Source of the DNA: Sulfurovum sp.
GTDB lineage: Bacteria > Campylobacterota > Campylobacteria > Campylobacterales > Sulfurovaceae
Assembly (NCBI GenBank): GCA_027068485.1
Contig: JAMOSB010000023.1
Location: 1 to 43,697 of the forward strand
Direction of reading: 5' to 3'
Length of the DNA: 43,697 bases
The notes beneath the pieces are model-generated. The model was not told the DNA's origin and searched no databases. It saw only the letters and a list, made by a program, of their open reading frames with translations. The position numbers were made by a program, and so were the translations under genes. Within the stretch, counting starts at the first letter, position 1, and each line of letters opens with the position of its first letter. Of the stretch, positions 19,455 through 26,435 are shown one piece after another.

Positions 19455-19496
19455 ATTATAGCTATCGAAAACTATGGAAATGTTGATTTATATCAA
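19455..19496 (-). promoter_or_regulatory. napA promoter with perfect FNR-type box
   Basis: TTGATTTATATCAA at 19483-19496 matches the FNR consensus TTGAT-N4-ATCAA in all ten fixed positions. On the minus strand a TATAAT (19455-19460) follows after exactly 22 nt. That puts the box centre at about -41.5, the class II activation geometry. The predicted start is near 19448, giving a leader of about 70 nt before napA. Confidence 0.85.
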
Positions 19497-21568: not shown

Positions 21569-21610
21569 ATTATATTAACTTCTAATTAATATAAGCTTGA
21601 CCTATGTCAA
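21569..21610 (-). promoter_or_regulatory. FNR-type promoter of the 113-aa/NnrS-like/DUF59 operon
   Basis: TTGACCTATGTCAA at 21597-21610 is a palindromic box with arms TTGAC/GTCAA, one base per arm from the FNR consensus. On the minus strand TATAAT (21569-21574) lies exactly 22 nt from the box, identical to the napA promoter. The predicted start is near 21562, about 18 nt before the start codon. Confidence 0.8.
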
Positions 21611-21621
21611 TAGCGTTTAAC

Positions 21622-22188
21622 TTACCGAAAGTGCTTCTGAAAGTACCCCTTAACCAGTCCATCAAAGTAACGCATACGCGATTTACCTTTGGGCATTGTA
21701 GCACGCAAAGACTTCATCTGTTGCAAAAAATCTCCGATAGAGTCGGGAAGTGCCTGCTCAAAGTAGCGTCGTATCTGCTTGGCAAATGCGGGAGAGGCTC
21801 CCCCTGTAGAAAATGCCACAGTCAAGTCCCCTTTTTGGACATAAGAGGGGAAGATAAAGTCACAATAGGCGGTGTTATCTACGGAGTTGACCAAGATACG
21901 ACTCCCTCGTGACTCCTTATAGATAGCGTGGTGAAGCGTGGGGGTATCAGTCGCAACAATCACCATATCAAACCCCTCAATATCTCCATGTTGGTAGGCT
22001 CGTGTATGGAAAGTGAGCTGATGGGCATCAATGAGCTTCTGGGTAGAAGGGACGACGGCTAACGCAATCACCGTAATCTCTTGGGTAAAGTCCAAAAGTT
22101 TTACCAACTTCTCGGAGGCGATCACCCCACCACCTACAACCAAGACACGACATGCGTTCATATCCATATACATCGGGAAAAATGCCAT
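21622..22188 (-). CDS. Precorrin-2 dehydrogenase (CysG-N/Met8 type)
   Basis: This enzyme oxidises precorrin-2 to sirohydrochlorin with NAD and may also insert iron to make siroheme. The 188-aa protein has the Rossmann motif VLVVGGGVIASEKLVKLL (14-31) and the conserved VNSVDNTAYCDFIFPS segment whose Asp is the catalytic residue in CysG/Met8, then TVAFSTGGASPAFAKQIR. It has no SUMT domain; SUMT is a separate gene at 24125. It stands divergent from nirDL and shares its FNR box, which ties it to siroheme/heme d1 supply during nitrite respiration. Confidence 0.9.
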   Translation of the reverse strand: MAFFPMYMDMNACRVLVVGGGVIASEKLVKLLDFTQEITVIALAVVPSTQKLIDAHQLTFHTRAYQHGDIEGFDMVIVATDTPTLHHAIYKESRGSRILVNSVDNTAYCDFIFPSYVQKGDLTVAFSTGGASPAFAKQIRRYFEQALPDSIGDFLQQMKSLRATMPKGKSRMRYFDGLVKGYFQKHFR

Positions 22189-22217: not shown

Positions 22218-22259
22218 ACTATAACAAAAGTTGCCCTCTGTTACTTTGATATGTGTCAA
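22218..22259 (-). promoter_or_regulatory. Minus-side promoter of the shared FNR box (precorrin-2 dehydrogenase)
   Basis: The box TTGATATGTGTCAA (22246-22259) read on the minus strand is followed after exactly 22 nt by TATAGT (22218-22223). The predicted start is near 22211, giving a 23-nt leader. The same box serves the divergent gene on the plus strand. Confidence 0.75.
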
Positions 22260-22287
22260 TCTTAGGTAGACTATGATTGACTATAAT
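22246..22287 (+). promoter_or_regulatory. Plus-side promoter of the shared FNR box (nirDL)
   Basis: TTGATATGTGTCAA (22246-22259) is followed on the plus strand after exactly 22 nt by TATAAT (22282-22287). The predicted start near 22294 lies downstream of the first in-frame ATG at 22273, so that ATG cannot be used from this promoter. This is why I place the nirDL start at 22318. Confidence 0.8.
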
Positions 22288-22317
22288 CCCAAACGATTTA
22301 TGATGGAGTACAACACA

Positions 22318-23313
22318 ATGAAAAACGAACTACTTTACGAGATGCAAAATGCCTTTCCCCTTATAGAGAGACCCTTTGAGGCGGTCGCACATAAACTCAA
22401 TACTACTGAGGAGGAGGTACTCTCCTTGGTCTCACAGCTTAAAGAGGAGCGAATCATCCGACAGACCTCTGCGATCTTCGATACCAAGCGGTTGGGCTAT
22501 CGCTCCTCCTTGGTCGCGTTCAAGGTTGACCCCTCTCAGATAGACCATGCAGTATCACTAATCAATGCCCACCCCGGAGTGAGCCACAACTACCTTCGTA
22601 ACCACGACTACAATATCTGGTTTACGATGGCTGTCGCTCCCGACTCCATACTAGGACTAGAGCAGACCATCGCCATACTCCAAGAGCAGAGTGGTGCGAG
22701 TGATGCGATCATCCTCCCAACACTCAAGATGTTTAAGATCTCTGTCAAGATGGATACCACAGGCAAACGAGCCAAAAAAGAGAAGGTCAAACGCGTCACA
22801 CACAAACCTCTAGCGCTAACCCCTAAGTATATCGCTGTCATCAAAGAGCTACAACAAGATATCAGTGTAACACCTGAGCCATTCAAAGAGGCTATCGAGC
22901 GATTGGGGATGGGGTATGAAGAGTTTTTTACCATCGCCACAACGCTCAAAGAAGCGGGGGTAATGCGTCGTTTTGCCACTATCCTCAACCACCGCAAAGC
23001 AGGCTTTGGTGCCAATGCGATGAGTGTCTGGGCTGTCCCTGAAGCAGAAGGAGAGCGTATCGGACGAGAGATGGCAGAGTTCTCAGCGGTAAGCCACTGC
23101 TACCTCCGCCCGAGCTACCCCAACTGGCCCTACAACCTCTTTGCGATGGTACACGCCAAGACCCAAGAGGCGTGTGATGCCCTCATTGATGAGATGGCAA
23201 AAGAGAGTGGACTCAGTGAGTATAGTAAACTCTACTCTACCCAAGAGTTCAAAAAACAGCGGTTGGTCTACTTCGATGAGAGCTTTGAGGCGTGGGAGAG
23301 AGCCAATAGCTAA
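22318..23313 (+). CDS. nirDL: Siroheme decarboxylase, fused NirDL type
   Basis: NirDL-type proteins remove two carboxyl groups from siroheme to give 12,18-didecarboxysiroheme on the way to heme d1. The 331-aa protein contains two AsnC/Lrp-like units: about 1-155 (HTH region, then HPGVSHNYLRNHDYNIWFTM) and about 175-331 (SAVSHCYLRPSYPNWPYNLFAM). These are the D-like and L-like halves. ATG 22318 is chosen because GGAG lies 9 nt upstream and the promoter start at about 22294 excludes the earlier ATG at 22273. NirG and NirH are not seen, so this one chain may do the whole decarboxylation. AhbAB for heme b is an alternative role. Confidence 0.88.
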   Translation: MKNELLYEMQNAFPLIERPFEAVAHKLNTTEEEVLSLVSQLKEERIIRQTSAIFDTKRLGYRSSLVAFKVDPSQIDHAVSLINAHPGVSHNYLRNHDYNIWFTMAVAPDSILGLEQTIAILQEQSGASDAIILPTLKMFKISVKMDTTGKRAKKEKVKRVTHKPLALTPKYIAVIKELQQDISVTPEPFKEAIERLGMGYEEFFTIATTLKEAGVMRRFATILNHRKAGFGANAMSVWAVPEAEGERIGREMAEFSAVSHCYLRPSYPNWPYNLFAMVHAKTQEACDALIDEMAKESGLSEYSKLYSTQEFKKQRLVYFDESFEAWERANS

Positions 23314-23324
23314 TGAGACAAGCG

Positions 23325-23341
23325 GGGGTTGTCACGACCCC
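23325..23341. terminator. Short hairpin between convergent nirDL and the regulator gene
   Basis: GGGGTT and GACCCC form a 6-bp stem with a 5-nt loop, 11 bp after nirDL and overlapping the last codons of the regulator gene. It lacks a U run in both directions, so it is at best a weak bidirectional terminator. Confidence 0.35.
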
Positions 23342-24036
23342 TTGTAGCCTATCTTCTGCTTAAACCCTGCTAGGCAGTTGGTACAATCTTTAAGCGTATT
23401 GGTCTCTACTATCATATTGAGTGCGGTGGGGTTTAGAATCTCTATCTGATGCTTCTGCACCGTGACAATCCCCTCTTTTTTAAACTTGGTCATAATACGA
23501 GAGAAGGTCTCAGGCGTAAGGTTAAGGATCGAAGCGATCTCATTATTTTTGAGACGGTTGAAGATATCGACCTTTTTAATCATCAAGTCTGCCACCTTCG
23601 CTTCAGAGGAGAGGATCGTCTCTTTGTGTACCAGTGCGGAGAGGAGTACCACCTTCCCTGTCAAGGACTTGATAAGCTCCAAGGAGAACTCAGGCTGACT
23701 AAGATACTCATAGAGTTTACTAAAAGGCAAAAGTCCAATACTCCCATCGGTCACAAACTCACAAGTGGCAGGAAAGCTCTCCTGCTCAAAACAGGCAAAC
23801 TCAGCGATGAGTGCGGGAGCAGTAAGGCGATTGATCTGGACTTGTGAACCTTTGGGAGAGGTCTTATAGAGCTTGGTACTCCCTTTAATCAAGATATGTA
23901 GATACTCACTCTTATCCCCCTCATAGAAGACGATACTATTTTTAGTAAAATGTTTGATATGGGTATAGTCTTGAAGCTCTTTGATATAGGATTTATCTAG
24001 AGCAGAGAAGAGTGGTAGATCATCTAGTTTCAACAT
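23332..24036 (-). CDS. CRP/FNR-family regulator, FNR-type DNA specificity
   Basis: The 234-aa protein has an N-terminal cyclic-nucleotide-binding-like beta domain (about 1-115), a dimerisation helix, and a C-terminal winged helix. Its recognition helix TPETFSRIMTKFKKEG contains Glu176, Ser179 and Arg180, the E-x-x-S-R pattern that reads TTGAT in FNR. The FNR N-terminal cysteine cluster is absent; Cys occur only at 82, 92, 218 and 221, the last two as CTNC near the C-terminus. It could therefore sense NO through heme as DNR/NnrR-type proteins do, or another signal. It lies amid four FNR-type promoters and is their best candidate activator. Confidence 0.9.
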   Translation of the reverse strand: MLKLDDLPLFSALDKSYIKELQDYTHIKHFTKNSIVFYEGDKSEYLHILIKGSTKLYKTSPKGSQVQINRLTAPALIAEFACFEQESFPATCEFVTDGSIGLLPFSKLYEYLSQPEFSLELIKSLTGKVVLLSALVHKETILSSEAKVADLMIKKVDIFNRLKNNEIASILNLTPETFSRIMTKFKKEGIVTVQKHQIEILNPTALNMIVETNTLKDCTNCLAGFKQKIGYKGS

Positions 24037-26366: not shown

Positions 26367-26394
26367 AATGGTTGTCCTTGATATAATGTAGGGA

Positions 26395-26435
26395 TAATAA
26401 CAGCTTTTTTATGTTGGAGAGTTGATTTTAGACAA
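26395..26435 (-). promoter_or_regulatory. Weak FNR-type promoter ahead of the nirC-like gene
   Basis: On the minus strand TTGTCTAAAATCAA (26422-26435) has one perfect half-site (ATCAA) and one poor half-site. TATTAT (26395-26400) follows after 21 nt, giving a leader of about 22 nt. The layout matches the strong boxes in this window apart from one base of spacing, but the match is clearly weaker. Confidence 0.4.

Follow-up and report, generated by a model that had tools for sequence, protein, structure and literature searches.

Can one operator drive two divergent promoters of the same pathway, and are the two promoters equivalent? The question is raised by the region between the precorrin-2 dehydrogenase gene (pdh) and nirDL in Sulfurovum sp., which spans 129 bp and holds one operator. 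We analyzed this region within a 43,697-nt stretch of DNA (contig JAMOSB010000023.1, assembly GCA_027068485.1; hereafter the window) and compared it with 175 family genomes (Sulfurovum and allied Campylobacterota). We consider it probable that a single class II site, bound by a Crp/Fnr-type activator, co-induces pdh and nirDL from two unequal promoters.

One box between two divergent promoters

The region comprises the following elements (positions are those of the window):
21622 to 22188, minus strand: pdh, precorrin-2 dehydrogenase of the CysG N-terminal family (TIGR01470, 132.7 bits, above cut-off)
22218 to 22223, minus strand: -10 hexamer TATAGT (ACTATA on the plus strand) of the pdh promoter; 22-nt gap to the box (22224-22245), predicted start ~22211
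22246 to 22259, no strand: Crp/Fnr-type box TTGATATGTGTCAA, common to both promoters, identified by sequence and by conservation in relatives
22282 to 22287, plus strand: -10 hexamer TATAAT of the nirDL promoter; 22-nt gap to the box (22260-22281), predicted start ~22294
22318 to 23313, plus strand: nirDL, fused siroheme decarboxylase AhbA-AhbB/NirD-NirL (NF040708 and NF040707, both above cut-offs); likely start ATG 22318

The positions of box and hexamers and the 22-nt spacing on each side had been proposed in a first-pass annotation and were confirmed base by base from the sequence. With the hexamers taken as -12 to -7 and the starts predicted from spacing, the box centre (22252.5) falls at -41.5 for both promoters, and the predicted starts (22211 and 22294) are 83 bp apart. 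The annotation had also described overlapping polymerase sites. The box is indeed common to both, but the core elements do not otherwise overlap, and only the expected alpha-CTD positions reach into the spacer of the opposite promoter. SD sequences AAAGG (22199-22195, minus strand) and GGAG (22305-22308) precede the ATG codons of pdh (22188) and nirDL (22318), respectively; the longest-ORF start of nirDL (22273) is unlikely to be used because it lies upstream of the predicted transcript start. Farther along from nirDL are genes for NirJ, uroporphyrinogen methyltransferase and cytochrome c. The family assignments of pdh and nirDL, together with their common box, support the proposal that siroheme formation is tied to siroheme decarboxylation through one site.

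Conservation and natural rearrangements in relatives

NirDL is present in 94/175 family genomes. We compiled 48 loci with pdh and nirDL in divergent orientation and, between them, a box of no more than one mismatch; in relatives this box is often the perfect palindrome TTGATATGTATCAA. TAnnnT hexamers flanked the box at exactly 22 nt in both directions in 39/48 of these divergent loci and within 21-23 nt in 45/48, compared with 0-2 of 48 for any other symmetric gap. On the nirDL side, TAnnnT was found at 22 nt in 42/48 loci (TATAAT in 36). On the pdh side it was found there in 43/48, as opposed to 4/33 loci in which nirDL is not divergent from pdh (Fisher p ~1e-12, relatedness ignored); nirDL's own hexamer was still at 22 nt in 25 of those 33. 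All four exceptions belong to a single genus, where the divergent gene is napA, mostly equipped with a box of its own; several loci of this genus have a pair of boxes, one for each promoter, and each box has a hexamer on its own side only. In another genus, the regulator gene, pdh and nirDL are co-directional, with a box before nirDL and none before pdh. These counts are not independent events because the sequences are related by descent; several genera are involved.

The window also holds one-way boxes:
21597 to 21610, minus strand: control box TTGACATAGGTCAA of the operon of a 113-aa gene; TATAAT at 21574-21569, 22 nt away
19483 to 19496, minus strand: box TTGATATAAATCAA upstream of napA; TATAAT at 19460-19455, 22 nt away

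In relatives, the box of the 113-aa gene, which adjoins pdh, had TAnnnT at 22 nt on its own side in 49/49 cases and behind it in 0/49. We favor a shared site because the exact 22/22 arrangement is kept in relatives, the pdh-side hexamer tracks gene order and one-way promoters are single-sided. The first-pass view of one FNR-type box with two divergent class II-spaced promoters is thereby upheld by geometry and conservation.

Loss of the box in relatives that keep the gene pair had been named in advance as evidence against this view. The view withstood this check. A single shared box was retained in 49/53 pair-keeping loci (the 48 above, one whose box was identified separately (L069), L036, L040, L089 and L092), with one split (L036) and three losses (L040, L089 and L092). 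At the split locus, a ~1 kb insertion parts pdh from nirDL: pdh retained the box and its hexamer, the old nirDL -10 has degenerated into TATCTG, and a box of its own, with TATAAT 22 nt away, precedes nirDL. The retention of box and pdh hexamer after the separation of nirDL indicates that the box serves pdh by itself. The three loci that keep the gene pair without a good box count against the shared-site reading. L040 and L092 carry a hairpin-rich insert between pdh and nirDL, coinciding with the loss of a recognisable shared box. Sulfurimonas has the same divergent pair with one common box and, for nirDL, mostly TACAAT at 22 nt; its best pdh hexamer (mostly TATGAT or TATTAT) lies at 21-23 nt, in most cases with G at -14. 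Exact symmetry is thus not a requirement in this genus.

Promoter asymmetry and the proposed use of both promoters

The first-pass annotation had assigned the same geometry to both sides. The equal spacing stands, but the promoter types differ, the pdh side having an extended -10, a weak hexamer and a conserved spacer:
22224 to 22226, minus strand: extended -10 element TGT, directly 5' of TATAGT, with G at -14
22224 to 22245, minus strand: pdh-side spacer, with the consensus AGCAATTATGnTArACTTnnGn in relatives, from which the window's copy has diverged

G at -14 was present on the pdh side in 45/47 relatives versus 2/47 on the nirDL side, and mean pairwise spacer identity in the same 47 genomes was 65% versus 37%. 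The relatives' pdh hexamers are weaker (TAAATT, TACATT, TAGAGT) than the TATAAT of the nirDL side. The extended -10 covers part of the pdh spacer, and AATTATGnTArACTT is conserved beyond that. An NssR-like box (TTAACAAAAGTTTA) was considered for this spacer and rejected, since the base between G and TA is not constrained and the pattern shared by all clades, GnTAnAnT, is that of an extended -10, without a palindrome. Class II activation does not call for a spacer this conserved, which counts against the shared-site reading and may point to an additional factor or to a promoter of another type. The literature that we searched contained no description of such an asymmetry between a plain strong and an extended weak promoter.

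We hypothesize that a dimer on the operator, at -41.5 to both starts, would activate polymerase in the class II manner in either direction, so that siroheme synthesis (pdh) and decarboxylation towards heme d1 (nirDL) would be induced together under nitrate or NO. With its consensus -10, nirDL should depend on the activator. The extended -10 and weak hexamer of pdh probably permit basal, less activator-dependent transcription, or may ease a clash between two polymerases. In class II complexes of CRP and FNR, alpha-CTD binds DNA upstream of the activator; the extended -10 of pdh may lower the need for such contacts, which would fall on the nirDL spacer. A role of basal pdh expression in supplying a siroheme-dependent nitrite or sulfite reductase was considered and is unsupported, as a genome search found no NIR_SIR domain.

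Two readings compete with this one over the use of the promoters. According to the first, which we judge unlikely, the box activates nirDL only, pdh is a stand-alone extended -10 promoter that is constitutive or even hindered by the activator, and the 22-nt spacing is incidental. The nearly invariant G at -14 and the strongly conserved pdh spacer are as expected of a promoter recognized on its own, and in an engineered bidirectional promoter of Escherichia coli with a shared -10, CRP at -40.5 or -60.5 activated one direction and repressed the other (PMC12825309). However, a box-independent promoter would not need its hexamer at exactly 22 nt, as found in 43 of the 48 divergent loci, and at the split locus the box and pdh hexamer persist without adjacent nirDL. 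The second reading, that the dimer recruits one polymerase at a time and pdh and nirDL alternate or compete, we regard as rather improbable. The starts are 83 bp apart, the alpha-CTD site upstream of the activator is the other promoter's spacer, and polymerase competition is known at activated bidirectional promoters, there sharing one -10 (PMC12825309). Against this, the core elements overlap only at the box, and genes of one pathway would gain nothing obvious by alternating. At the nirS/nosR2 site of Dinoroseobacter shibae, both directions are active under the same condition; this does not settle competition, because they were measured in separate fusions.

Regulator, regulon and known systems

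The shared-site reading calls for an activator, for which the window offers a candidate next to nirDL:
23332 to 24036, minus strand: Crp/Fnr-family regulator (PF00027 and PF13545), convergent with nirDL

The first-pass choice of FNR as the binding protein did not hold. A single HTH_Crp_2 regulator was found in the genome; it does not have FNR's N-terminal cysteine cluster, nor was the N-terminal Cys motif of FNR found in its 80 sequences; judged by sequence, the protein is not a 4Fe-4S FNR oxygen sensor. C92, C218 and C221 are conserved in 79/80 of these sequences and C82 in most, and the CxxC (C218, C221) that follows the HTH at the C-terminus points to a metal or redox site different from that of FNR. 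The C-terminus of the AlphaFold model (pLDDT 73) is too uncertain to place C92 relative to the CxxC. Comparison with DNR (3dkw) gave a weak sequence match (E 4e-9) and Foldseek rank 6, with ~20% identity and TM ~0.47 for a model of only pLDDT 73. The recognition helix in most of the 80 orthologues is LTPETFSR, with E181, S184 and R185 and with P180 instead of R180 (CRP numbering), which agrees with the FNR-type DNA code of E181, S184, R185 and no R180, for TTGAT half-sites (PMC1274295). NssR of Campylobacter has the motif TTAAC-N4-GTTAA and A180/Q181 (PMC1274295), in contrast to the TTGAT/C-type box and the P180/E181 helix found here.

The protein encoded at 23332-24036 likely binds the box. 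Binding by another protein, such as a distant Crp/Fnr member, seems very unlikely to us. In its favor, PF13545 may overlook a divergent second regulator, and fold and sequence searches place the candidate in Crp/Fnr without a close solved relative. Yet the candidate is the sole HTH_Crp_2 match in 1.73 Mb at 98% completeness, its gene lies close to nirDL in many relatives, and its helix carries the FNR-type code. Elsewhere in the genome, boxes also precede nirS, nosZ, a nos gene and a hemerythrin-type operon (names read from translations); together with those before napA and the 113-aa operon, they make a denitrification regulon likely. The signal (NO, nitrate or O2) is a guess from this regulon content. 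A degenerate box (TTGTCTAAAATCAA, 26422-26435, minus strand), with TATTAT at 26394-26399, 22 nt away, lies upstream of the cytochrome c-nirJ-uroporphyrinogen methyltransferase operon and probably is part of the same regulon.

How often such an arrangement might arise by chance was estimated by simulating DNA of intergenic composition. One fixed symmetric gap with a 5/6 match on the minus and a 6/6 match on the plus side gave p ~1e-5, and a match of 5/6 or better on each side, at any common gap from 15 to 30 nt, gave p ~0.0025. The box alone is unconvincing because the window contains 45 loose palindrome matches versus 31 expected. The comparative data are stronger evidence against chance than the simulation. 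The idea that the 22/22 arrangement is a chance product of AT-rich DNA, where TATAAT-like hexamers are common and the any-gap probability is as given, has a negligible probability and is refuted by the comparative data, with exact spacing kept across several genera and gene-order and one-way controls in agreement.

A census of the dual pattern over the 175 genomes returned 84 matches versus none for a reversed control and revealed a second recurrent locus. It consists of divergent genes for small membrane proteins (127-131 and 121 aa, without a match in Pfam or NCBIfam) that adjoin genes read as norCB and cytochrome cd1 (nirS). Among 68 such loci, the left hexamer is TATACT (three TATAAT) and lies at exactly 22 nt in 66, whereas the right hexamer is at 22 nt in 48 and at 23 nt in 20. 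G at -14 occurred in 0/64 on one side and 65/66 on the other, the same asymmetry as at pdh/nirDL. In examples from relatives (L257, 7007-7895; L258, 6261-7155), the pair shares a single box, the hexamers lying 22 nt and 22-23 nt from it. The 121-aa protein was found in 87/175 family genomes. The locus is absent from the window's genome, where nirS adjoins an ilvE-like gene (L008, C12:122086-125099) at the place at which relatives have norCB and the membrane pair; another norB-like gene of this genome, on C33 (L320), neighbors the gene of an Rrf2-like regulator. A palindrome of the same genome that is flanked by a hexamer on either side (L010) was dismissed as a second dual site, as it lies between co-directional nos genes.

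The asymmetry is thus found at two unrelated loci (pdh/nirDL and the membrane pair beside norCB) and on the pdh side of Sulfurimonas; the one-way promoters counted for the regulon did not show it. We tentatively propose, with somewhat less than even confidence, a design rule in Sulfurovaceae: a shared dimer acts on two promoters at class II spacing, of which one carries a consensus -10 and the other combines an extended -10 with a weak hexamer, and it is this asymmetry that lets both be used.

Single-site divergent control is already known in kind from D. shibae and E. coli. In D. shibae, one Fnr/Dnr site between nirS and nosR2 lies 39.5 and 41.5 bp from the starts; reporter fusions and regulator mutants showed that DnrD is required, and FnrL used, in both directions, and nirS expression is lost when the box is mutated (PMC5398030). 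A similar intergenic Fnr/Dnr site serves hemA3/dnrE (41.5 and 39.5; PMC5398030). The Sulfurovum arrangement resembles these in that divergent denitrification genes share one Fnr/Dnr-type box, which stands at class II distance from the (here predicted) start of each. It differs in gene pair, phylum and half-site (TTAAC-N4-GTCAA in D. shibae), and in having 41.5/41.5 with one predicted regulator rather than 39.5/41.5 with several. Eleven divergent pairs with a single CRP site, of any CRP position class, are reported in E. coli (PMC3105977, in which El-Robh and Busby 2002 is cited as the model study of single-CRP-site divergent promoters); these likewise combine one dimer with two divergent promoters, but use CRP with TGTGA half-sites. 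The E. coli bidirectional promoters of Warman 2026 (PMC12825309) share the short symmetric divergent region and possible polymerase competition; they have one common -10, whereas here two separate -10s flank the activator site. As in the DNR/NnrR regulons (PMC1274295), an FNR-type box precedes nitrogen-oxide respiration genes under a one-component Crp/Fnr regulator, although the regulator here is only ~20% identical to DNR by fold alignment and has a conserved C-terminal CxxC. The pdh/nirDL site adds a further case, marked by unusually strict conservation and by the promoter asymmetry.

According to a 2019 review, Campylobacterota have no known orthologue of FNR, ArcA or NarP (PMC6682613). We predict that in Sulfurovum-like bacteria a single Crp/Fnr-type protein governs a compact denitrification regulon, whose promoter grammar (box, 22 nt, -10) is sufficiently precise for start prediction. 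The natural rearrangements, in which the pair is kept, split, replaced by napA or co-directional, make the question of one dimer and two polymerases testable on existing sequences, and the consistent split between a plain strong and an extended weak promoter is a specific idea that can be falsified.
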